Source of the DNA: Chloroflexota bacterium | Lineage (GTDB): Bacteria > Chloroflexota > Dehalococcoidia > Lucifugimonadales > HRBIN23 | NCBI GenBank assembly: GCA_016210325.1 | Contig: JACQUK010000071.1 | Location: forward strand, 1 to 41,102 | DNA: 41,102 nt | Direction: 5' to 3' | Shown here: piece by piece, positions 9,858 through 39,794 of the stretch | Layout of the letters: each line of letters starts with the position of its first letter | Position numbering within the stretch: the first letter of the stretch is position 1 | The notes under the pieces: generated by a model | Database searches by the model: none | What the model was told of the DNA's origin: nothing | What the model saw: only the letters and a program-made list of their open reading frames with translations | Program-made: the position numbers and the translations under genes

Positions 9858-10823
9858 TCAAGTCCGGCCTTCTTCGCCAGCACCGCCAGAGGGCGCAGGC
9901 GCCTCCTGGTCAGAGGTGCCCGGTGCCACTGGAGCACCATCGCCCTCCAGGGCCGTGGTCATGGCGGCAATGGCCACCTCCACCTGGTCATCCTCCGGTT
10001 TCCGCGTGGTGAGGGCCTGGAGGGCCAGGCTAGGCGCCATCACCCAGCGCACCAGGGGTATGTCGGCGTGGGCACCGCTGAAGCGGATCACCTCGTAGCT
10101 GATTCCCGCGATGATGGGGATCAGAGCCAGGCGCACCAAGACGCCGATCCACAGGGGGGGCCGCCCCAAGAGCGCGTGGGACAAGACTGCGATGACCACT
10201 ACTACCAGGATGAAGGCCGTGCCACAGCGCGGGTGCGCTGTGCTGAACTGCCGTACGTTCTGGGGCTGCAACGGGAGGCCATGTTCGTAGGCGTGAATGG
10301 TCATATGCTCGGCACCGTGGTAGGCGAAGACCCGCCGTACCTCCCCAACCCGCCCAATGACCGCGATGTAGCCTAGAACCAGGGCCAGACGTATCAGCCC
10401 CTCCAGCAAGTTGCTCAGGACCGCAGAGGGGACCACGGCGTCCAGGGAGCGGGCCGCAAACAGGGGCAAAAGGAAGAACAAGGCCACGGCGAGAGCGAAG
10501 GCAACGGCCATAGACCCCCAGACGGCCCCAGAAGGCATGCTACTGGGCGCAGCCGAGGCGTCCTTGGCCTCGTCCGCCGGGGCCGCTGCCACCTGGGCGG
10601 AGTAGCTCAGGGCCCGCATCCCCAGCAGTAGCGCCTCCAGCAATACCACCACCCCCCGCACCAGAGGGGCTTGGCGGGCCTTGCTGGAGGAAAACCCAGG
10701 CAGCGGCCAGGTGCTCCGCACAACCGCGCCATTGGGGTGCCGCACCGCCAGGCCGATACAGCGGCCCCCACGAATCATGACCCCTTCGATGAGGGCCTGG
10801 CCCCCGTAGAAGAACGGCTTCAC
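9858..10823 (-). CDS. DUF1385 family membrane protein (YqhQ-like)
   Basis: 321 residues. It opens with the family hallmark FYGGQALIEGVMIRGG and contains GAEHMTIHAYEHG and STAHPRCGTAFILVVVVIA, which are diagnostic of DUF1385. About four hydrophobic segments are visible, at about 107-130, 140-160, 205-225 and 230-250. The C-terminal 40 residues are acidic, Ala/Pro-rich and probably disordered. The function is unknown. In Firmicutes and Chloroflexota the gene commonly lies near rpmE and prfA, and here it is 111 bp after rpmE. It starts at GTG behind AGGTGA. Confidence 0.9.
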   Translation of the reverse strand: MKPFFYGGQALIEGVMIRGGRCIGLAVRHPNGAVVRSTWPLPGFSSSKARQAPLVRGVVVLLEALLLGMRALSYSAQVAAAPADEAKDASAAPSSMPSGAVWGSMAVAFALAVALFFLLPLFAARSLDAVVPSAVLSNLLEGLIRLALVLGYIAVIGRVGEVRRVFAYHGAEHMTIHAYEHGLPLQPQNVRQFSTAHPRCGTAFILVVVVIAVLSHALLGRPPLWIGVLVRLALIPIIAGISYEVIRFSGAHADIPLVRWVMAPSLALQALTTRKPEDDQVEVAIAAMTTALEGDGAPVAPGTSDQEAPAPSGGAGEEGRT

Positions 10824-10884
10824 CTTCGTTCACCTGCTGAGGAGACTGCAACACGCTTCGGGGGTCTCGTCACACGACACAAAT

Positions 10885-10915
10885 AAAAACGGGGTGAGCG
10901 TTTTTCTCACCCCTC
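10885..10915 (-). terminator. Rho-independent terminator after rpmE
   Basis: On the minus strand, GGGGTGAG-aaaaacg-CTCACCCC is followed by GTTTTTATTT. It should end most rplU-rpmA-rpmE transcripts before DUF1385, so DUF1385 depends on read-through or its own promoter. Confidence 0.85.
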
Positions 10916-10934
10916 CGAGAGCCCTGGGCGGCGC

Positions 10935-11138
10935 CTAGCTGAGGCCGTACTTCCTCTTGAGGCGCTCGACCCGGCCCTCGGTATCTACGATTCGCTGCTC
11001 GCCGGTGAAGAACGGATGGCAGTGCGAGCAAACCTCCACCCGCAACTCCTTCTTGGTGGCACCGGTGGTCAGAATGTGGCCACACGAGCAGACAACTCTG
11101 GCGTCAGGGTACCAGGTTGGGTGGATCTTAGCTTTCAC
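10935..11138 (-). CDS. rpmE: 50S ribosomal protein L31, zinc-binding form
   Basis: 67 residues, normal for L31. Four zinc ligands of the C+ type are visible: C17 and C19 (VCSCG), and C37 and C40 (CSHCHPFF). L31 bridges the two subunits of the ribosome. The GTG start overlaps the end of rpmA by 11 bp, with AGAGGTAGG upstream inside rpmA, so translation is probably coupled. A zinc-free paralogue is not in the window. Confidence 0.98.
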
Positions 11139-11481
11139 GCTGGCCTACCTCTGGTTTCGTTGGCTGCTCCTCAGGGGCGGACCGCTCCGGCGCCCCAGCC
11201 GGGACCGGTGTCGCAACAGGTGGTGTCGCAACGGGATAGACGCAGACCCGCCGCTTGTCCTTGCGGGCGAACTCGAACCGTACGACGCCATCGGCTGTGG
11301 CAAACAGGGTGAAGTCCCTGCCAATGCCTACATTGAGCCCCGGGAGGATGCGAGTGCCCCGCTGCCTCACAATGATGTTGCCGGCCCGCACAACCTGTCC
11401 AGCGTAGCGTTTCACGCCGAGCCGCTGGCCATTGCTGTCCCGGCCGTTGCGGACCGAGCCGCCGGCTTTCTTGTGTGCCAT
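11128..11481 (-). CDS. rpmA: 50S ribosomal protein L27 with a C-terminal extension
   Basis: 117 residues; bacterial L27 is usually about 85-95. The first 85 or so are canonical: [16 protein letters not shown] at the N-terminus reaches towards the peptidyl transferase centre, then [16 protein letters not shown]. The last 30 residues are Pro/Ala/Glu-rich ([13 protein letters not shown] and on) and are probably disordered. There is no cleavable N-terminal extension of the Firmicute kind. Six bases separate it from rplU. Confidence 0.97.
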
Positions 11482-11487
11482 ACCTGC

Positions 11488-11976
11488 TTACTCCCCTTGC
11501 TTGTCACCAGAGGGCTCCGGCGAGACCACCGGCTCCTGCCCCTGCTCTTGAGCCGGTTGAGCCGGCACCGCTGGCTCTTCCGCCGGCTTCTCCTCGGCCA
11601 CAGGCTCCTTCAGCTCCGGCGCCTCGGCCCTGGGCGCTGCCTGCACTTCGAACACGCCAGGAACAATGATGCTCTTGACCAACAGCCGCGTGTACCACTG
11701 CCGGTGGCCCCGCTTGCGACGGTAGTTCTTCTTTGGACGGTACTTCATGATCACGAGCTTGGGGCCAACGAAAGCGTCCAGCACCTCGGCCACGACTTTT
11801 GCCCCCCGCAGTTGCTCATCGCCAGCGTAGAGCTGACCCTCGTGGGCCACCAACCGTACGTCTATCAGGTCTAGCACCCCCCCGACCTGGGTGGGGAGCT
11901 TCTCTACGTCAATCACATCGCCCGGACTCAGGCGGTACTGCTTGCCGCCGGTCTCGACTACAGCATACGTCGTCAC
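11488..11976 (-). CDS. rplU: 50S ribosomal protein L21 with an acidic C-terminal tail
   Basis: 162 residues against the usual 100-105. Residues 1-103 are canonical L21: AVVETGGKQYRLSPGD at the N-terminus, KYRPKKNYRRKRGHRQ in the RNA-binding loop, and YTRLLVKSI. The remaining 55 or so residues are rich in Glu, Pro, Ala and Gln (KEPVAEEKPAEEPAVPAQ) and probably disordered. First gene of rplU-rpmA-rpmE, behind a near-consensus promoter. Confidence 0.97.
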   Translation of the reverse strand: MTTYAVVETGGKQYRLSPGDVIDVEKLPTQVGGVLDLIDVRLVAHEGQLYAGDEQLRGAKVVAEVLDAFVGPKLVIMKYRPKKNYRRKRGHRQWYTRLLVKSIIVPGVFEVQAAPRAEAPELKEPVAEEKPAEEPAVPAQPAQEQGQEPVVSPEPSGDKQGE

Positions 11977-12014
11977 GGAACAGCCTTTACGATATCCACA
12001 AAAATCACCTTCCC

Positions 12015-12043
12015 ATTCTATGACCCCCTCAGAGGGGTGTCAA
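12015..12043 (-). promoter_or_regulatory. Sigma70-type promoter for rplU-rpmA-rpmE
   Basis: On the minus strand there is a perfect TTGACA, a 17-bp spacer and TAGAAT (5/6). The -10 box ends about 38 bp before the rplU ATG. The spacer contains a CCCCTC-t-GAGGGG palindrome, which could be a binding site for a regulator between the two boxes. Confidence 0.8.
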
Positions 12044-12285
12044 GCTGACCCGTCGGACTCATGGGCACATCAGGTCCACCTACTCACCCCCATCTGGTCC
12101 CCAATGGAGCCAAGATGAACAGGCCGGGGAGGGCCTGCTTGAGCCCTGATGCACTCATGCCAGAATGGTCAAGGCGCCGGGGTGGCCACCAATATCGGAG
12201 GCCCGCCACGCTTGCCCGCTGCGTGGCCTCCTGGTCTCGATACCCCCCCTTGCTGAAGCAGACTCCCTTCCCTACACTGACAACC

Positions 12286-14496
12286 GTGCTCTACAGGCTT
12301 GGCCTCTTGGCAGTGCGTTACCGCTGGGCAGTCATTGCCGCTTGGGCGGTCTTGCTGCTCTTGGCCCTGCCTCTGGCACCCAGGGCCTCCTCGGTCCTCA
12401 AGGCTGGCTTCGGCCGTGCTGACACCGAGTCCCAGCGCGGCCTCGAGCTTCTCACCAACAGGATGGGCGTGCCGGAGGCGTCTATCACCCTGGTCTTTCA
12501 GAGCAGCGAGCTGGCAGCCACCGACCCTCGCTTCATCGAGGCTGAGCAGCAGGCACTAGCCCCGTTGGCCGCCTCTCCCCGTGTGGCCCGCATCGTGACC
12601 CACTACAATGCCCAGAACCAACAGATGGTCTCCCCAGACGGCCACACGGCTTACGCCCTGGCCTTGCTGACCGATGACATCAATACCGCCATGGACCACT
12701 ATCCGGAGCTACGCGCCCTGGTACGCTCCGAGCAGCTCCAGGTGCAGGTCACCGGCGGCATCGCCGTCTTCGCGGACCTTAACGCAGCCAGCGAGCGCGA
12801 CCTGCGCCGCGCCGAGGTCCTGAGCCTCCCCATTGTGCTGGTAGCCCTGGTGCTGGTGTTCGGCAGCGCCGTGGCCGCTGGGCTGCCCCTGGCCATGGGC
12901 GCCCTCAGCGTAGCGCTCACCCTTGCCCTCATTGCGCTGCTGGCACAGTCCGTGGACATGTCCGTCTTCGTGTTGAACATCGCCACGATGCTGGGGCTGG
13001 GTGTCGCGGTGGACTACTCGCTGCTGGTGGTGAACCGCTTCCGAGAGGAGCTGCGGCAGCGGGACCGTCGGGAGGCGGTAGCGGTTGCGATGAGCACCGC
13101 TGGGCGAGCCCTCCTCTTCTCCGGCGCCACTACCATCCTGGGGCTCTCGGGGCTACTGTTCTTCAAGTTTATGATGCTGCGTTCCCTGGGGATCAGCGGC
13201 ATTATCGTCATCGGCGTCTCGCTGCTGGTGGCCACCACCCTGCTGCCGGCCATCCTGGCCGTGCTGGGGCCGCGGGTCAACGCCTGGGCTATCATCCCCG
13301 CCAGAGAGGCACAGGCGTCCTGGTGGCACCGCATTGCCACCGGGGTCATGCGCCACCCGTTCCTGGTGATGGTCCCGGTCTCCATCGGCCTCGTAGTGCT
13401 GGGCCTGCCCTTCCTTCAGGTGAAGATCGGCTCCCCCTGGGTCTCCGTGCTCCCGCCGGACTCCGAGGCCCGCGCAGGCTGGGAGACCCTGACCCGCGCC
13501 TTTGGCCCCGCCGAGCTGTCGCCAGTCATGCTTCTAGTGACCTCTGAGAAGGGGACCTTCCACCCTGATACCGTGGGCACACTCTACGACTTCACCCATC
13601 GGCTGGCCCAGGACCCCAGAGTGGTGCGAGTGGAGAGCATCGCGACCCTGGCACCCGGTGCGAGCAAGGAGCAATACCAGCAGCTCTACCGTGATCCACA
13701 GGCCATTCCGGTCCCGGATCTCAGGAAAGCTGTGGCCGACCTGGCCCGGCCAGATATCACCCTGGTCCGCGTGTTCCCCAGAGGCGCTCCCCTGTCCGAC
13801 GAGAGTAAGGCGCTGGTGCAGGACATCCGGAGCAGCGCCCCCCGGGACGGCGTCCAGGTCTTCGCGTCCGGGCTAACAGCAGACCTCTTGGACTCCACAA
13901 AGGTCATGTACGGTGACTTCCCCTGGGTGGTGGCCTACATCATGGTCACCATCTACTTGGCGTTGCTGGTGCTCTTCCGCTCCGTGGTCCTGCCGTTGAA
14001 GGCCGTGGTGATGAACACCCTTAGCATCTTCGCCAGCTACGGCGCCCTGGTGTTCATTTTCCAGCAAGGCCACTTCCAGCGCATCCTGGGCTTCACCGCT
14101 GATGGGACCACTGAATCTACTATCCCCATCCTGCTCTTCTGCATCCTTTTTGGCCTCAGCATGGACTACGAGGTCTTCATGCTGGCCCGCATCAAAGAGG
14201 TCTACGACGCAACCCGGGACAATACTGGCAGCGTGGCCCTGGGACTCGAGCGGACCGGGCGTATCGTCACCAGCGCCGCCCTCATTCTGGTCATTGTGAC
14301 CGGCGCCTTCGCCACCGGGGACATCGTCATCGTCAAGGCGCTGGGGTTGGGGATGGCCATCGCCATCTTTCTGGATGCCACGGTTGTCCGCGCGCTGCTG
14401 GTGCCAGCCACCATGCGCGTCCTGGGCAACGTGAACTGGTGGGCGCCGGCCTGGCTCCGGGGCCGCGGCGTGGCGGCCCGCGTTGGGCCACCATGA
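12286..14496 (+). CDS. MMPL family RND-type membrane transporter
   Basis: 736 residues from GTG 12286. I chose this start because the sequence before it is unlike a membrane protein, while LYRLGLLAVRYRWAVIAAW right after it is the typical MMPL N-terminus; open frame continues up to 12061. It has the duplicated RND layout: a first helix (about 14-37), a large outer loop, a helix bundle containing GVAVDYSLLVVNRFREEL (about 235-255), a second outer loop, and a second bundle containing GLSMDYEVFMLARIKE (about 622-637). Actinobacterial MMPL proteins export lipids; the cargo here is unknown. No periplasmic adaptor gene is adjacent. Confidence 0.9.
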   Translation: MLYRLGLLAVRYRWAVIAAWAVLLLLALPLAPRASSVLKAGFGRADTESQRGLELLTNRMGVPEASITLVFQSSELAATDPRFIEAEQQALAPLAASPRVARIVTHYNAQNQQMVSPDGHTAYALALLTDDINTAMDHYPELRALVRSEQLQVQVTGGIAVFADLNAASERDLRRAEVLSLPIVLVALVLVFGSAVAAGLPLAMGALSVALTLALIALLAQSVDMSVFVLNIATMLGLGVAVDYSLLVVNRFREELRQRDRREAVAVAMSTAGRALLFSGATTILGLSGLLFFKFMMLRSLGISGIIVIGVSLLVATTLLPAILAVLGPRVNAWAIIPAREAQASWWHRIATGVMRHPFLVMVPVSIGLVVLGLPFLQVKIGSPWVSVLPPDSEARAGWETLTRAFGPAELSPVMLLVTSEKGTFHPDTVGTLYDFTHRLAQDPRVVRVESIATLAPGASKEQYQQLYRDPQAIPVPDLRKAVADLARPDITLVRVFPRGAPLSDESKALVQDIRSSAPRDGVQVFASGLTADLLDSTKVMYGDFPWVVAYIMVTIYLALLVLFRSVVLPLKAVVMNTLSIFASYGALVFIFQQGHFQRILGFTADGTTESTIPILLFCILFGLSMDYEVFMLARIKEVYDATRDNTGSVALGLERTGRIVTSAALILVIVTGAFATGDIVIVKALGLGMAIAIFLDATVVRALLVPATMRVLGNVNWWAPAWLRGRGVAARVGPP

Positions 14497-22644: not shown

Positions 22645-24684
22645 ATGTGCGCTTCCGGCGCGCTTATCTGCCTACCTGATGGGACATACAAAGTCTCAGA
22701 CGACACCCTGCGTGATTTCGAATGCGAGGTGGAGGAAGCCGAGCAAGTTCAAAACCAGGCAAGAGCCAGATTCATCGCGGTTTGCAGGCAACACTGCCCG
22801 TCATGCGAGCCTGAAGAATCTTGGAAAGCTTTCAACGAGAAACTGCTCGTCCCGCTCGTTCGAGAACTCGGAGCGCGAACGTACGAGATCCTCTCCTCGA
22901 CACAAAAGAGCTTCGTGGGTAATATCGCCTTCGAAGAGTTTTTCCGGATGTTTCCAGAGAACCAGCAAGACAATCTAAGAACAGCCATCCTTGCATTCCT
23001 AGATCCCAAGAACGATGTAGTTCGCACCTTTATGCTTGGCTACTTGAACTCGTACTTCTTTATGGAATCAGCGAGTCTGGACACCAGCGCGCTTGATGCG
23101 TTGGCCCGAGTCAAACCTTCCTTCACTCTCTTCCTGGATACAAACTTCGTATTTTCTATCCTCGGCCTCCACGATAACCCGTCGAATGCGGCAGCCATAT
23201 CCCTCTTGCGTCTATTGAACACTCTTCCCCCCTCAGTTACAGAACGCCTTTACGTGTGTCCTATGACACTTGAGGAGACCAGGGCGGTCTTATCTGCTAA
23301 TAGCGCGTCTCTTGAGCAAGTAGAGGGGACCCCGGACATGGCGCGGGCCGTCTTGAACACAAGTACCTTGAGCGGCCTAGCACGCAAGTTCTTCCAAGAG
23401 GTGGTTAATGCCGGACAAACTATCAGAGCCAAGGACTATTTTGAGCCCTACATAAACAACCTTAAGCAGATTCTGCGCTCCAAAGGTGTGGAACTCTACA
23501 ACGAGAACCCCGACCGCTTGAAACAGAACCAGGCAGTAATAGATGATGCCCTCCAACTTCGTGAGTACGAGGTAACTACCTACGGTCCGAGAGCCAAGAG
23601 TTACGAAGCAATCTTGCATGACGTTGTTCTGTGGCACTCTGTCCGGACGAGACGACCCCAGCTAGTAGAATCGCCGCTGGAAGCAGGTTATTGGGTTGTC
23701 ACGGTTGACTACCGCTTTATTCGCTTCGATCTATGGAAGAGACGTCAACAAACGAACGAGCCACCAGTGTGTCTTAGCCCGACTGCGCTCATCCAAATGC
23801 TCCAGTTCTGGCTCCCTCGGAGCACGGAATTGGAGGAAACCATAGTCGGGAGTCTCCGTCTTCCCTTCCTGTTCCAGCACTTCGATCCCGCAGCCGAGCG
23901 GGTGTCTATCCAGATTCTACAAACACTCGCAAGATTCGAAAATGTCAATGACCTTTCCGAAGAGACAATTACCCAAGTCCTCGTCAATCAGGCGTTGCGG
24001 AACAAGATACCCAGTGCGCAGGACACCCAGACGAAGACTGAATTAGTGCGCGAGGCACTCGTCGAAGAAGACCAACAACTCAGGAATGCATTAGCCGCTG
24101 CACAAAACAGGTTAGAAACGCTCCACACGGAGGTTGCGACGAAGTCCGCTACGCTCCAAGAGCTGCAGCAGCACCTTTTGATTCAAGAACGCGAAACCAG
24201 CGACAAGACCAGAGCGATACAACAACTCCAAGAGCGCCTCGAGAAACAGGAACGCGAGAAGTCAGAAGCAGAGCACCTAACCAGAGTTGAGCGCGAAGCG
24301 CGCCGGTCGCTGGAACATAGAGTTACTGAATTGGAGCAAGATCGGGACCGTGAACAACAGCGGGCTTCTCTAAGAAAACGGGTAACCGCCTTTGGCGTGT
24401 GGGTTGCACTCTCGTTTGTTGCAGTTGCCATTCTTGCAGTTTTTCTCCCGGACGTCCTCTCGCGCACAACTTCCTGGAGCTATTGGAGAATCTCACTGCT
24501 CACTTGGGCGGCACTGTTAGTCCTATGGCTGCAGTTAGTTGCGTGGCGAGGGTCGGCCAGTGCCGGCCTGATGGAACACCGTCTGTTCCGTCATTTCTTG
24601 TGGGCCAAGACACGACTTCTTGGTGCCATAGGCCTCGTGACACTCACGGTAATTGGCACAATAGCGTACGAACTGCTCAAATAG
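22645..24684 (+). CDS. PIN-like nuclease with coiled coil and C-terminal membrane helices
   Basis: 679 residues from ATG 22645, which has no clear ribosome site and is in frame with the upstream 22429 part. A PIN-like nuclease domain spans about 158-362: FLDTN with D165, LEET with E210/E211, HDVVLW with D326 and VTVDYRF with D355 provide the acidic metal-binding set. Residues about 445-590 are a long Glu/Gln/Arg-rich coiled coil, and hydrophobic stretches at about 597-618, 628-645 and 660-678 would anchor it in the membrane. PIN domains cut RNA in VapC toxins and some defence effectors. The region is more AT-rich than its neighbours, which suggests transfer. No antitoxin-like gene is adjacent. 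Confidence 0.75.
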   Translation: MCASGALICLPDGTYKVSDDTLRDFECEVEEAEQVQNQARARFIAVCRQHCPSCEPEESWKAFNEKLLVPLVRELGARTYEILSSTQKSFVGNIAFEEFFRMFPENQQDNLRTAILAFLDPKNDVVRTFMLGYLNSYFFMESASLDTSALDALARVKPSFTLFLDTNFVFSILGLHDNPSNAAAISLLRLLNTLPPSVTERLYVCPMTLEETRAVLSANSASLEQVEGTPDMARAVLNTSTLSGLARKFFQEVVNAGQTIRAKDYFEPYINNLKQILRSKGVELYNENPDRLKQNQAVIDDALQLREYEVTTYGPRAKSYEAILHDVVLWHSVRTRRPQLVESPLEAGYWVVTVDYRFIRFDLWKRRQQTNEPPVCLSPTALIQMLQFWLPRSTELEETIVGSLRLPFLFQHFDPAAERVSIQILQTLARFENVNDLSEETITQVLVNQALRNKIPSAQDTQTKTELVREALVEEDQQLRNALAAAQNRLETLHTEVATKSATLQELQQHLLIQERETSDKTRAIQQLQERLEKQEREKSEAEHLTRVEREARRSLEHRVTELEQDRDREQQRASLRKRVTAFGVWVALSFVAVAILAVFLPDVLSRTTSWSYWRISLLTWAALLVLWLQLVAWRGSASAGLMEHRLFRHFLWAKTRLLGAIGLVTLTVIGTIAYELLK

Positions 24685-25887: not shown

Positions 25888-26913
25888 ATGACCACCACAG
25901 CACGCGAGATCCGCTACCGGGACGCGGTTAACGAGGCGCTGCGCCAGGAGATGCAGCGGGACCCGGACGTCATCATCCTGGGCGAGGATATCGCCGGCGG
26001 CGCTGGCCGCGCCCAGCAGGGGATCGTGGACGCCTGGGGCGGCCCCTTCCGCACCACCCAGAGACTGATCCAGGAGTTCGGCCCGGAGCGGGTGCGGGAC
26101 ACCCCCATCTCCGAGGGCGGGTTCATTGGCGCCGCCATCGGGGCCGCCGCCGCGGGCCTGCGCCCCGTGGCCGAGCTGATGTTCGTGGACTTCGTCGGGG
26201 TCTGCCTGGACCAGCTCCTGAACAACGCGGCCAAGATGCGATATATGTATGGCGGACAGATCACTATCCCCGTCACTATTGTCACCCGCATCGGCGCCGG
26301 AGTAGGCTCCGCGGCCCAGCACTCCGAGTCTTTCTACTCCATCTTCGCCCACATCCCCGGCCTCAAGGGCGTCGTGCCCTCGGACCCCTACACGGCCAAG
26401 GGGCTGCTCACCGCCGCCATCCGCGACGACGACCCGGTGGTGCTCTTCGAGCACAAGAAGCTGTACAACCGCACGGGGCCGGTGCCCCAGGAGGCATACA
26501 CCCTCCCCATCGGCAAGGCACGGGTGCTGAAGCCGGGCAAGGACATCACCCTGGTGGGCATCTCGCTAATGACGTGGGAGTGCATGGCGGCGGCAGAGGC
26601 GCTGGCCAAGGAGGGGGTAGACGCCGAGGTCATTGACCTGCTGAGCGTGTCACCCATTGACTACGACGCGGTGCTGGAGTCGGTGCGCAAGACTCACCGC
26701 CTGGTGGTGGTGGACGAGGACACGCCGCGGTGCAGCGTGGCGTCAGAAATCATCAGCATAGTCGCCGAGGAGGCGCTAGACTTCCTGGACGCGCCACCCA
26801 GAAAGGTCACTGCGCCACACACGCCGGTGCCCTACAGCCGCCCGTTGGAGAAGCTGTACGTGCCCGACGCGGCGCGCATTGTGGCGGCGGCCAGGGCGGC
26901 CGTGGGGAGGTAG
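25888..26913 (+). CDS. 2-oxoacid/acetoin dehydrogenase E1 beta subunit
   Basis: 341 residues from ATG 25888, which AAGGAGG precedes; frame remains open upstream into the E1 alpha gene. It pairs with E1 alpha as the ThDP heterotetramer. Landmarks are ILGEDIAGGAG (about 28-38), RDTPISEGGFIGAAIGAAAAGLRPV split around residue 80, AQHSESFYSIF and the C-terminal transketolase domain (ITLVGISLMTWE, VDEDTPRCSVASEI). The E2 acyltransferase and E3 lipoamide dehydrogenase usually follow; here an AT-rich island starts instead. Confidence 0.93.
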   Translation: MTTTAREIRYRDAVNEALRQEMQRDPDVIILGEDIAGGAGRAQQGIVDAWGGPFRTTQRLIQEFGPERVRDTPISEGGFIGAAIGAAAAGLRPVAELMFVDFVGVCLDQLLNNAAKMRYMYGGQITIPVTIVTRIGAGVGSAAQHSESFYSIFAHIPGLKGVVPSDPYTAKGLLTAAIRDDDPVVLFEHKKLYNRTGPVPQEAYTLPIGKARVLKPGKDITLVGISLMTWECMAAAEALAKEGVDAEVIDLLSVSPIDYDAVLESVRKTHRLVVVDEDTPRCSVASEIISIVAEEALDFLDAPPRKVTAPHTPVPYSRPLEKLYVPDAARIVAAARAAVGR

Positions 26914-26989
26914 CAGCGCCCCCTCAAGGTTGGTCAAGCGCGGCCATACCTGTAACCTGCTGCACATAGCCGTTGGAGCAAAGAAGAGC

Positions 26990-26995
26990 TATACT
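26990..26995 (+). promoter_or_regulatory. Candidate -10 box of the TIGR04255/HEPN cassette
   Basis: TATACT (5/6) lies 42 bp before the first gene of the cassette. No good -35 box is seen. Confidence 0.3.
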
Positions 26996-27037
26996 CGAAG
27001 GTACAGGGGAAAGGATCAAAGACCGCTCAGGAGTCCT

Positions 27038-27793
27038 ATGAAAAGCCGTACCTACAACAGACCCCCCTTACAAGAGGTCATTGTTGAAATCCTTGTGGGC
27101 CCCAGTACTGCCTGGGACCTCACCGTTCCCGGTATCTTATATGAAGGGTTGAAAAAGGATTTCCCTGTTCGTGAAAGACGCCAAATTCAGGAAGTGGACA
27201 TTCAGCAGGCAACTGGAAGCTCCGCGCTCAATGTGAAGCAAAGCGAACGTGCCGTGTTCCTGGCAAATGATAGACGACGTCTTGTCCAAGTCGGGGATAG
27301 ACTAATCGCTGTCAACCAATTACCACCCTATCCCGGGTGGCAAGAAGTCAGGAACTCCGTACAGGCGGCATATACGGCTCTGAAAGCGGTAGTGACCGTA
27401 AATGAACTCCGACAGCTTTCTTTGCGGTATATAGACCGGATCGTAATCCCTGGAACCAAGGTAAAGGTCGAAGACTATTTGAAGTTCAGGCCGCACTTTG
27501 AGGGTGTCGAAAAGGATTCTCCACTGGATACATGGGCTGCCTTCATTGTGGGTATTCAGGTTCCGTATGATGACTCAAAAAACCTGCTCCGCATACAGAT
27601 AGGTTCCGGACTGCCTGAAAAGGATAAACAGGTGTTTTCCATGGAAACAGATTACCGTCTTGTGCAAGCAGGAGCGGTTCATACAGAACAGATTCTCGAA
27701 TGGCTTGATGTAGCTCACAGAAGGTGTGACGCCGCCTTTGAAAGCGCTATAACAGACAACCTTCGGCAGCTCTTCCAGCCGGTGGAGGAATAG
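27038..27793 (+). CDS. TIGR04255 family protein
   Basis: 251 residues from ATG 27038, with AGGAG upstream. The pattern matches the sporadic TIGR04255 family: N-terminal RPPLQEVIVEI, LVQVGDRLIAVNQLPPYPGW in the middle (about 90-110), and LRQLSLRYIDRIVIP, the family's LRYIN-like strand, then FSMETDYRL. The function is unknown. Members occur patchily, often in variable regions. It is the first gene of a tight three-gene set, with one base between its stop codon and the next ATG. The region is more AT-rich than the flanking E1 genes. Confidence 0.75.
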   Translation: MKSRTYNRPPLQEVIVEILVGPSTAWDLTVPGILYEGLKKDFPVRERRQIQEVDIQQATGSSALNVKQSERAVFLANDRRRLVQVGDRLIAVNQLPPYPGWQEVRNSVQAAYTALKAVVTVNELRQLSLRYIDRIVIPGTKVKVEDYLKFRPHFEGVEKDSPLDTWAAFIVGIQVPYDDSKNLLRIQIGSGLPEKDKQVFSMETDYRLVQAGAVHTEQILEWLDVAHRRCDAAFESAITDNLRQLFQPVEE

Positions 27794-27794
27794 G

Positions 27795-28316
27795 ATGCCC
27801 ACCGCTACGGCTGCAAAGGACTTACTGCCGCAGGGCACTAGAAATCCAGCAGACTATGGGTATATTGCTGGGTATATTGCTCGCCCGCCTCGGTCCCATA
27901 TGGAAGGTGGCACGCCAACACAGGTTCATATACAACAGTACATTGTGGCGGCCTCCCAGGCTTTTTGGCCAGTAACTGTTGATGCCGACTCGCTGCTGAA
28001 AGAGTTATCAAGCCTGGGCGTCTCATGCGTGAATCCAGGGGCCGTTCGTGACTATCTGGCCCATTACTCGGACTTACCTCTGCTCGTTGGGCAAATGACG
28101 AGGCAGGTCCATCAGGCTCTCCAAGATATGCGCCTTAGTCTAGAACTGGTTTACGACCCGGAGGATACCAACACAGAAACCCTGGTTTTGTACCTTCATC
28201 CGACCGAACTAGATCCCTCCCTTTTTAAACATCTTCGAGCGTGGAACCACACAGTTGCTGAACAAATGATATCCTCAGAAGCGTGGTTCATAGTCAACTT
28301 CGACCTGCGCCCATAA
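27795..28316 (+). CDS. Hypothetical protein, middle gene of the HEPN cassette
   Basis: 173 residues, no family recognised. GGAGG sits inside the end of the preceding gene, one base from its stop codon, so translation is probably coupled. There is no signal peptide or membrane segment. The C-terminal half has alternating strands and helices (LVLYLHPTELDPSLFKHLRAW, then EAWFIVNFDLRP). Its position between a TIGR04255 gene and a HEPN-like gene suggests a part in the same system. Confidence 0.65.
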   Translation: MPTATAAKDLLPQGTRNPADYGYIAGYIARPPRSHMEGGTPTQVHIQQYIVAASQAFWPVTVDADSLLKELSSLGVSCVNPGAVRDYLAHYSDLPLLVGQMTRQVHQALQDMRLSLELVYDPEDTNTETLVLYLHPTELDPSLFKHLRAWNHTVAEQMISSEAWFIVNFDLRP

Positions 28317-37014: not shown

Positions 37015-37399
37015 ATGGGCATCCGCGTCAGGCGCGTGTACGACGCCCCCGATGCCGAGGAGGGCCAGCGGTTCCTGGTGGACCGCCTCTGGCCCAGGGG
37101 GGTGACCAGGGAGGCGCTCCAGGGCACGGTGTGGCCTCAAGGAGGCCGCACCCAGCGACGAGCTGCGCCGCTGGTTCGGCCACGACCCGTCGCGCTGGGA
37201 GGAGTTCTGCCGCCGCTACGCCGCCGAGCTCGACGCCAGGCCGGAGGCGCTGTCGTCCCTGCCGGAGGCGGCCCGTCGGGGCCCAGTCACCCTGCTCTAC
37301 GGGGCGCGGGACACCCAGCACAACAACGCCGTGGCCCTGGGGTACTACCTGGACGAGAGGCTGAAGGTGGGTAGTGCCAGGAAGGTGGGGTGCTGTTGA
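37015..37399 (+). pseudogene. DUF488 family gene with a one-base frameshift
   Basis: The first 40 codons read RVRRVYDAPDAEEG, RFLVDRLWPRGVTREAL, the DUF488 start. At 37132-37136 the family's WLKEAAPSDELRRWF is reached only if one C of TGGCCTC is skipped; the reading then continues as FGHDPSRWEEFCRRYAAEL, TLLYGARDTQHNNAVAL and stops at 37397. Without the skip the frame gives unrelated sequence. So this is a one-base insertion, or a sequencing error. DUF488 proteins are about 120 residues and of unknown function. Confidence 0.8.
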
Positions 37400-37449: not shown

Positions 37450-38568
37450 TCATAGGTGTCCGGCTCCTCTGAATAATGCCACGCGCCAGTTGTCATTAGT
37501 ATCATTAATGAAACGGCGAAGCCGAACATGCCCCCAGTCTAGCCCCATCTCTTGGATGCTCTTAGTTGCCCCTTCTACCATTTGTCGCACCTTGTTCCCC
37601 CGAAAACGAAACCGGCGCTGGGCGACGGTCGGTGCCGTTATGTATGCGTTGGGTGTCAAGGCTGTGATCCGTCGAGAGTCGCTAGCGGTTGGTAAGACCC
37701 TGCCCGCAAGACTCCAGGGGCACAGCACCGCGAATGGGTTGGGAGCCAGAAGATCTGACCAGATGCGGGCCTCGTGTCCACTCTCGGCACCGTGGTGAGA
37801 TACCTTGAAGACTTCCGCCTGACCCGAGACCGCTACCGAGTTCTCAATGAGAACAGACCAGCCAACTAACGGGGCATTTTCCAAGTCGGCGCCCAAGAGC
37901 ATCTTGTGTCCCCCAACCTCCACCCAGAGAACCACAGAAGCCTCGTTGCGACTGGGGGGTGTGATCCTTCTCGGTTGTTCCCCAACTACAGGGTGACGCG
38001 CCCCAAATGCACTACAGGCCTGGAAAATTGCTCGATCGCATGGTGACAGCGAATGTACCTGGGCTAAGTACTGCTGCCCACCGATTAGGAGCTGCGTTCT
38101 TAGAAGCAGCCGATCTTGTGTCGCGGCGATTAGGTGTTGGAAGCGAGGCTGTCTACGCTGTGCCTGAAGGATTCGGAATACTTCAGCGATTTCATCTACG
38201 CCCGTTTCTGGCAGTGGCCGACTCCCGAACATGGCTGGTAGCGCGAGGAACTCGTCTCTTTGAAAGGCAGCGGAAATCGCGACCTTGGCTGCCTTGCACT
38301 GTTCCACAACGGTTCTGATACCCCTTACGTGGTCATCATGCCAATGAGTTATCACCACCAAAACGACCGAGTGCCCAACATCAGTCCCAATTTCCGAAAG
38401 ATAGCGGAGCGCTACCGGCTCACCGTCGGATGGATCGACACAAGAGTCCACGACAACCCACTGGTCGTCACCAACATGGACCAGCACGCACTCTCCATAA
38501 CCTGGCCCGAAGAGCGACACTTCTAATTCATCTGTAGCTGGCGCTTGCAATTCAGTGTTCGTCTTCAA
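37450..38568 (-). CDS. MBL-fold metallohydrolase, third gene of an overlapping operon
   Basis: 372 residues. GPGYGECVLVHVGDDQWVVVD (20-41, here split at the Cys) and ITHWHDDH (73-80) give the H75-x-H77-D78-x-H80 zinc site; KVSHHGAESGHEARIW later resembles the SHHG strand of ComEC-type MBL domains. Such domains cut nucleic acids or hydrolyse small esters; the target is unknown. The probable TTG start lies behind AAGGG and overlaps the preceding gene by 17 bp; later starts are possible. The whole operon is more AT-rich than the core, suggesting transfer. Confidence 0.85.
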   Translation of the reverse strand: MKTNTELQAPATDELEVSLFGPGYGECVLVHVGDDQWVVVDSCVDPSDGEPVALRYLSEIGTDVGHSVVLVVITHWHDDHVRGIRTVVEQCKAAKVAISAAFQRDEFLALPAMFGSRPLPETGVDEIAEVFRILQAQRRQPRFQHLIAATQDRLLLRTQLLIGGQQYLAQVHSLSPCDRAIFQACSAFGARHPVVGEQPRRITPPSRNEASVVLWVEVGGHKMLLGADLENAPLVGWSVLIENSVAVSGQAEVFKVSHHGAESGHEARIWSDLLAPNPFAVLCPWSLAGRVLPTASDSRRITALTPNAYITAPTVAQRRFRFRGNKVRQMVEGATKSIQEMGLDWGHVRLRRFINDTNDNWRVALFRGAGHL

Positions 38569-39121
38569 AAAGACCCTTGAAGTTCTCGATTGTGTCTTTC
38601 ACTGTTTCCATCTCCGTGCCTGTCCAGACCGGGAGCCTGCGGAATCTAAGGATCGAACTCCGATGCCGACCGGATGGGCGATCAAGATACCCGATACTCC
38701 AATAGAACGCAGCTCCTTGCTTTATCAATGGACGGTCGTCCTGGTCAACTTCTTCAGCATATATCTCGACATCCTGGATGCGACCTTCGCCTACCAGTGT
38801 TGTGATTCTCGCCTTGAATGTCTCTTCTCGGACCTCTGTCACATAGCCTATCCACTTTTGTATGGCATTGAAAGACTCTGCAACTTCGACTCGCGGCAAA
38901 CCATACGTTGATAGATCAGGCGCATTCACAATTAGTGTACTTGATGCGTCGTTAGATTCATTCGGTCGTGTTAGATCGGCATTATCTATGTTAGGTTGCG
39001 AGTATGACTCTTCAGTTCGTATGCTTGGGGGTTCATCCTCGACCTCTACCGGAACCGATCGCGCGTCATGTTCACGGTCCTTCATTTGAGTTGAAGACGA
39101 GACATGCCCGCGCTTGCTCAC
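38552..39121 (-). CDS. Hypothetical protein with disordered N-terminus and conserved C-terminal domain
   Basis: 189 residues. The first 80 or so are polar and Ser/Glu/Asp/Asn-rich, probably disordered. From about 86 to 172 the sequence AIQKWIGYVTEVREETFKA, then GAAFYWSIGYLDRP and SILRFRRLPVWT, looks like a small beta-barrel. It resembles an unnamed family I have seen as short genes next to proteins like its upstream neighbour; this is from memory and unverified. The GTG start overlaps the stop of the preceding gene in a GTGA, and its end overlaps the MBL gene by 17 bp, so all three are translated together. Confidence 0.7.
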   Translation of the reverse strand: MSKRGHVSSSTQMKDREHDARSVPVEVEDEPPSIRTEESYSQPNIDNADLTRPNESNDASSTLIVNAPDLSTYGLPRVEVAESFNAIQKWIGYVTEVREETFKARITTLVGEGRIQDVEIYAEEVDQDDRPLIKQGAAFYWSIGYLDRPSGRHRSSILRFRRLPVWTGTEMETVKDTIENFKGLFEDEH

Positions 39122-39780
39122 GTAGTTTCTCCTAGTTGCACTATCCTATCAGCGATAGTCCGTGATTCCTTCATTGAATCAACCCAACAAGTTTTCAGGA
39201 TTTCAAGGGCCAGCGCGGTCCCCGCCACACCCTTCACTTCGACTTCTAGCTCGTAGTGGTCGTTAACAGCAATGTAGACTCCGGGTTGAATCCGATTCGA
39301 CGGCTCAACCGTCACTCGAACGTAGCCCTTTCCCTCTTTAGACTTGACTCCTTCCATGGTCAGACTTCGCATACCGGGGGCGTCCAGGATGTTTCCCCAA
39401 GGTTGCTTGGGAGCCAGGGAATCACCAACTAAGTGCCAGCGGTCTTTGTCAGCCATCCGAAAGTGGAAATGCCGATTGAGCCCCATCCGGCTTATAGGAG
39501 TGTGACTGAGAAGCTGGAACGCACCCAAGGTCAGATCGCGCAGCGACTCGTTGTAAGCTTCTTGGAGCGTCTCAGCTTGGAATCTCTCCTGCGTTACTCG
39601 AAGTTCCAGCCATTCAGTGTTGAAGCTTGTTATTTGGGGGCTGATGACCTGTATCTTAGCAGCATCCGCCTCTGCAGAGCGTAGCAAGCCATTACGCTCG
39701 AACCATGCTGGATGGAATATCGCAGGGTTCAGTGACCCTCTAAGAACTATACTGGCAGATTGGATCTCTAACTGTGCCAT
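39118..39780 (-). CDS. Hypothetical protein, first gene of the MBL operon
   Basis: 220 residues, no named family. Clear motif-like stretches are LELRVTQERFQAET (about 57-70), LLSHTPISRMGLNRHFHFRM (about 91-110), GMRSLTMEGVKS and PSNRIQPGVYIAVNDHYELE. The HTPIxxMGxNRxxHF stretch is in the place where TIGR04255 proteins carry their LRYIN strand, so a distant relation to the gene at 27038 is possible. There is no signal or membrane segment. A TATAGT box lies nine bases before the ATG with no ribosome site, which suggests a leaderless mRNA. Confidence 0.7.
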   Translation of the reverse strand: MAQLEIQSASIVLRGSLNPAIFHPAWFERNGLLRSAEADAAKIQVISPQITSFNTEWLELRVTQERFQAETLQEAYNESLRDLTLGAFQLLSHTPISRMGLNRHFHFRMADKDRWHLVGDSLAPKQPWGNILDAPGMRSLTMEGVKSKEGKGYVRVTVEPSNRIQPGVYIAVNDHYELEVEVKGVAGTALALEILKTCWVDSMKESRTIADRIVQLGETT

Positions 39781-39788
39781 CTTACCAT

Positions 39789-39794
39789 ACTATA
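39789..39794 (-). promoter_or_regulatory. -10 box for a possibly leaderless MBL operon
   Basis: On the minus strand, TATAGT (5/6) ends eight bases before the ATG at 39780. Transcription would begin at or next to the start codon. No clear -35 box. Confidence 0.4.

Follow-up and report, generated by a model that had tools for sequence, protein, structure and literature searches.

A conserved, mobile three-gene operon with a ComEC-like metallo-β-lactamase-fold hydrolase and a candidate role in anti-phage immunity

Avs1, Lamassu, Hachiman and Canu use ComEC-like DNases of the metallo-β-lactamase (MBL) fold as effectors. Known immune nucleases of this fold have disordered insertions that shield the active site and that a partner protease cleaves (PMC12799240). 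The survey of BREX-Related systems describes HNH, HKD, PD-(D/E)XK, TOPRIM/OLD, HEPN, PIN and Schlafen proteins as backup effectors (PMC12839542), and no MBL trio is found among them. Here we describe a trio of genes, P1, P2 and P3, encoded on a Chloroflexota contig of 41,102 nucleotides, referred to below as the window. We found no literature describing this trio, and term searches of Vassallo 2022 (PMC9519451) and of the BREX-related and YprA papers likewise returned no MBL trio.

Gene organization and surroundings of the trio

The initial annotation, made from the sequence alone, had proposed an operon of three overlapping, translationally coupled genes, and both the open reading frames (Table 1) and comparison with homologous loci agree with this. 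In 73 such loci the median gap is −4 bp at the P1/P2 junction and also at the P2/P3 junction (the P1/P2 spacing is exactly −4 bp in 25 of them), and because both medians are −4 bp we consider the coupling of the genes to be beyond chance. Given the possible −10 box close to P1 and the lack of an obvious Shine–Dalgarno sequence, the P1 start is possibly leaderless, as judged from the sequence; a consensus promoter scan returned no sigma-70 site on the trio strand and thus gives no support for such a start.

Table 1 Positions of the trio and adjoining features in the window
Feature	Position	Strand	Description
P1	39118–39780	minus	First gene; 220 aa; ATG start; alpha+beta protein
P2	38552–39121	minus	Second gene; 189 aa; GTG start
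P3	37450–38568	minus	Third gene; 372 aa; TTG start; ComEC-like MBL-fold hydrolase
P1 stop/P2 start overlap	39118–39121	minus	GTGA, 4 bp; from sequence
P2 end/P3 start overlap	38552–38568	minus	17 bp; from sequence
Possible −10 box	39789–39794	minus	TATAGT, 8 nt before the P1 ATG; from sequence only
DUF488 gene with frameshift	37015–37374	plus	Adjoins the trio; family match over the first 40 residues only

The trio was also correctly described as AT-rich, with a GC content of 53.2% as against 63.3% for the window (P1 51.9%, P2 49.5% and P3 55.8%), which ranks it 15th lowest among 776 windows of equal size, but AT-richness is not confined to it, as two further islands lie at approx. 22.0–24.6 and 26.9–28.4 kb. 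The first contains, at 22645–24684 on the plus strand, an ORF of 679 aa with no Pfam family, in which a PIN-like segment (FTLFLDTNFVFSILGL), a coiled coil and C-terminal transmembrane helices can be discerned by eye; this is possibly another defence or toxin gene. The second (26879–28316, plus strand) encodes a protein that we take to resemble the TIGR04255 family, followed by a 173-aa protein with 34% identity over 58 aa (pairwise E value 1e-6) with the middle protein of an operon headed by a P1 relative (L009, described below).

The trio is flanked by an M29 peptidase gene on one side and by the frameshifted DUF488 ORF and then a cupin gene on the other. No att-like repeat stands out around it, synteny comparison with relatives revealed no empty site, and none of its immediate neighbours on the 41-kb contig is a recognized defence gene; ORF and Pfam inspection showed that a DUF499 ATPase, a DUF1156 methyltransferase and a helicase are absent from its surroundings. 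In a related Chloroflexota genome a tRNA-Gly gene (L008:11075–11151) is situated approx. 400 bp upstream of the trio and is a possible integration site.

Distribution and genomic context of the trio

Genome contigs were searched with an alignment of P3, which gave at least 80 loci, and the gene order around these loci was assessed with iterated profiles. Among the P3 matches listed, 73 of 80 have P1, P2 and P3 in this order on one strand, and the loci come from at least 19 phyla or unassigned groups, one of the host organisms being an archaeon of the Thermoplasmatota. Six of the seven exceptions are at contig edges (L020, L030, L050, L066, L075 and L076), and the seventh (L061) has kept P2 and P3 and lost P1, so that the trio is present wherever the contig leaves room, with the exception of this truncated locus. 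These data establish the trio as a genuine, conserved operon. Degraded copies are present at L087 and L117. In viral contigs the complete trio was present at all 23 P3 loci (L148–L170), and although prophage and viral contigs carry the trio, it was not found in a collection of phage records. P2 used alone as the query gave no matches in the genome and viral contigs, whereas the P3 alignment did retrieve loci.

The trio had been described as mobile-looking, and its homologues bear this out. A tblastn search detected the full trio on two plasmids, one from Adhaeribacter swui (Bacteroidota) and the other, which is conjugative, from Pantoea agglomerans, with approx. 20–34% identity, and both plasmid trios adjoin recombinase or integrase genes. 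Its presence is sporadic, at approx. 1% (one of 98 relatives, three of 400 genomes in the phylum and four of 298 in one family). Two copies occur in a single Arenicellales genome, and on an Arenicellales chromosome (G499:C1) there are two full-length P1 genes (3231946–3232626 and 4311196–4311879) together with a third fragment. In the P3 tree the window protein clusters with its Chloroflexota relatives (SH-aLRT 96, in a set of six rows), and at least 31 changes of phylum label are required (minimum 18), which is fewer than in shuffles; being above the minimum yet below the shuffles, this value indicates a mixture of descent and transfer.

In E. coli, a DNA relative of the Pantoea P3 gene is present in 15 of 5426 genomes, and all three of those inspected have the full trio in a lambdoid prophage, with profile scores of 105, 62 and 300 bits for P1, P2 and P3 respectively. 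The trio has the holin/lysis genes on one side and antiterminator Q on the other, both on the opposite strand, and this is a typical position for lysogenic-conversion genes. RefSeq gives the E. coli P1 homologue (WP_000143147.1, at L174:10662–11378, within a trio that spans 10662–13062) the name ‘anti-phage protein’ in one assembly and lists it as a ‘hypothetical protein’ in the other two. A literature search with the E. coli trio accessions found no paper and the source of the former name could not be traced, but the label means that the trio has possibly been flagged already by someone.

A survey of gene neighbourhoods placed trio homologues inside operons related to Hma/BREX and beside R-M (restriction–modification) genes. 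At locus L049, HmaC/DUF499, a 159-aa gene, P1, P2, P3, the HmaB/DUF1156 methyltransferase and a PLD-helicase follow one another on one strand; at least five loci are of this kind (L049 and the similar L022, L032, L074 and L080), and a partial Hma-type context was found at four more (L029, L036, L060 and L069). Direct neighbours elsewhere include a type I R gene (L084), type IIG genes (L035 and L020) and an E1-E2-JAB protein (L021), and DrmMI, CBASS-like and integrase-like genes are also among the neighbours. Counting PADLOC families at E≤1e-15, with genes taken as simple longest-ORF picks, we obtained 182 in 135 and 133 in 133 flanking genes as against 24 in 116 control genes, an enrichment that is qualitative only because the family counts are redundant, with many models per gene. 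The controls were genes away from the trio in some of the same genomes, and one control place contained a type III R-M system. Defence or mobile-element contexts and a sporadic distribution are therefore both found for the trio homologues.

Properties of the three proteins

P3 is an MBL hydrolase of the ComEC-like type, and its metal site is intact. The protein belongs to the Pfam family Lactamase_B, and its residues H75xH77xD79H80, N208, D228, K255, H258 and H259 make up the complete set of metal-site residues that had been predicted as a full zinc site. In 76 homologues H75, H77, D79 and H80 are invariant, as are N208, D228, K255, H259 and G260, with H258 conserved in 98%. The best matches of the P3 profile in the PDB are the nuclease domains of ComEC (9ic4 and 30bt), with both motif blocks aligned, and these resemblances point to a DNase, although the substrate could also be RNA or a small molecule. 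Links to immune effectors are weak: the nearest PADLOC models are LmuA (41 bits) and RTasMBL (39 bits), both partial matches, and Avs1a. Against the Avs1a family model P3 scores 22.4 bits, failing the cut-off of 420. P3 also weakly matches RNase Z and glyoxalase II.

Both P1 and P2 had been described as belonging to no named family, and neither has a match in Pfam, NCBIfam or PADLOC, the best for P2 being a sub-threshold match to DUF6483. The AF2 model of P2 agrees with the earlier description of a disordered and β-barrel protein: residues 1–80 are disordered, residues 83–160 are modelled confidently as an OB-fold-like barrel (β-β-β-α-β-β) and a C-terminal helix spans residues 168–186. Foldseek retrieved mostly OB-fold proteins (SSB/Rim1, Stn1–Ten1 and RPA) with E values of 0.02 or worse, so that the OB-fold match of P2 is weak. 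At one locus (L056:1321–3030, plus strand) P2 and an FtsZ GTPase domain form a single in-frame fusion, which overlaps P1 by ATGA and is followed by P3. The same bin has a second FtsZ that is 96% identical, and the FtsZ–P2 protein is either a bait-type fusion or an assembly chimera; it hints at a possible bait role for the variable N-terminal part of P2. In addition, an Acetobacter plasmid (L004:7911–8312, plus strand) encodes a P2-like barrel with neither P1 nor P3, flanked by cytosine methyltransferase and N6-methyltransferase genes.

P1 has the motif FNPAIFxPxW near its N-terminus and invariant residues G15, P19, N102, P124 and N173 (69-row alignment). Its AF2 model is confident (pLDDT 95.4, pTM 0.90), but comparison of the fold with the PDB gave no good match (best TM approx. 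0.3), and similarity was found to one viral model lacking a name (TM 0.65–0.70, E value 2e-10, 19% identity). AdoMetDC was considered as a fold relative and rejected (TM 0.3, rmsd approx. 15), and TIGR04255 was also rejected, as P1 has no NCBIfam match to it and shows no profile similarity to the TIGR04255-like protein of the window.

Relatives of P1 also occur without P2 and P3. At three loci (L009, L140 and L147) the P1 relative heads a three-gene set whose middle and third proteins differ from P2 and P3, and on Nostoc plasmids it stands alone. The set at L009 continues with proteins of 216 and 147 aa, the latter HEPN-like by eye with no Pfam match; at L140 the P1 relative lies between HsdR and HsdS in a type I R-M locus on a Picosynechococcus plasmid, and L147 is a viral contig. 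This occurrence with other partners suggests that P1 is a modular sensor. We tentatively extend this to a new class of modular immune operons, in which P1 would be the constant recognition part, the middle and effector genes would be swapped and the N-terminus of P2 may carry bait. The swaps might, on the same speculative footing, comprise an OB-fold protein with a ComEC-like DNase here, and elsewhere other middle proteins, paired with a HEPN-like protein at L009 or with another third gene at L140 and L147.

Candidate function and comparison with known systems

We consider it probable that the trio is a horizontally mobile immune module directed against phages or other mobile genetic elements, in which a ComEC-like DNase is gated by P1 and P2. 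P3 would be a metal-dependent DNase that is silenced or directed by its two partners; the putative OB-fold of P2 may bind nucleic acid in the form of ssDNA or an intermediate of phage replication, or may dock P3, the disordered tail may serve as a tether or inhibitor, and P1 would sense an infection signal. Upon infection P3 would be freed and would protect by degrading the DNA of the invader, or all DNA in an abortive infection. As the trio encodes no recognizable protease, unlike the known MBL immune nucleases, gating would be expected to proceed by binding or conformation instead of proteolysis.

The initial annotation had left defence, toxin–antitoxin and nucleotide-signal functions side by side; the context favours defence, and no specific evidence for nucleotide signalling was found. 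The refutation test set out in that annotation, namely homologues lacking their partners or a metabolic pathway always containing the trio, failed. An addiction or abortive-infection unit of toxin–antitoxin type, with P3 as the nuclease toxin and P1 and P2 as its neutralizers, to the benefit of the carrier plasmid or prophage, is an unlikely alternative for which the small coupled genes (median spacing −4 bp), their residence on plasmids and prophages and the other small genes after P1 relatives, one of them HEPN-like by eye, can nevertheless be cited. Three proteins conserved across at least 19 phyla, and within R-M and BREX-related operons, exceed the usual toxin–antitoxin pair, and family searches found no autoregulatory DNA-binding domain in P1 or P2.

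The closest structural family of P3, namely the ComEC DNase domain with both motif blocks, speaks against the idea, which we rate as improbable, that P3 hydrolyses RNA or a nucleotide second messenger and not DNA, as in nucleotide-based immunity; moreover, the conserved unit has no cyclase, CARF or CD-NTase gene. It is true that RNase Z-type RNases and phosphodiesterases are found among the enzymes of the MBL fold, and the weak matches of P3 to RNase Z and glyoxalase II fit such an activity. We regard as very improbable a role in DNA uptake, DNA processing or plasmid maintenance with no immune function. ComEC itself unites an OB-like with an MBL domain, which the OB-fold and the ComEC-like nuclease of the trio resemble, and some copies reside on plasmids, but channel or pilus genes do not accompany the trio, which instead occurs within methyltransferase/helicase defence operons and at prophage cargo sites. 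Finally, a metabolic or housekeeping operon that is mobile in looks only is scarcely conceivable, as the ordinary genes directly beside the window trio are outweighed by its distribution, with sporadic presence, prophage and plasmid copies and no fixed pathway around it, which refutes this reading in practice.

If the trio is indeed a DNase-based immune module, a widespread protease-free system would join the MBL-nuclease effector class, bringing with it two protein families new to Pfam, P1 having no close solved fold, and possibly a second mode of gating ComEC-like nucleases. The relatives in E. coli prophages and on the Pantoea plasmid make the trio directly testable.

The trypsin–MBL, or gated MBL nuclease, modules of Avs1 (AVAST type 1), Lamassu (LmuA), Hachiman (HamM) and DRT (RTasMBL) (PMC12799240) likewise have a ComEC-like MBL hydrolase as the likely effector, in mobile operons with sensor or regulator proteins and in defence contexts. 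In contrast with these, the trio has no protease, STAND, SMC, helicase or RT partner, P3 matches their models weakly and is accompanied by two new proteins, and the MBL gene is the last of the operon and not upstream. No trypsin-like protease fused to a sensor was found beside P3, only P1 and P2 being conserved in the 73 loci, and neither of these matches protease families. Canu (the CanABC caspase–nuclease; PMC12799240) also consists of three genes, with the MBL nuclease last and a small partner of unclear role, but no caspase (CanA) domain was detected in the trio, and P1 and P2 have no Pfam peptidase match. The 6A-MBL anti-phage system (NCBIfam NF058524), for which we found no paper, likewise includes a protein of the MBL fold, and P3 scores 16.4 bits against its model, failing the cut-off of 220. 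With regard to Hma (PADLOC) and the DUF499-centred BREX-Related systems (PMC12839542), the trio lies inside such operons at the loci given above, but is mostly found without their genes, the context being present at approx. nine homologous loci. P3 aligns with the C-terminal MBL nuclease domain of ComEC/Rec2 (9ic4 and 30bt) over the HxxxDH-type metal, NxxS, LLxADxE and FKxxHHGS motifs, and differs from it in being a soluble, stand-alone protein in which the stretch from the metal motif to NxxS is approx. 48 residues longer, with a conserved G123 and an invariant E126.
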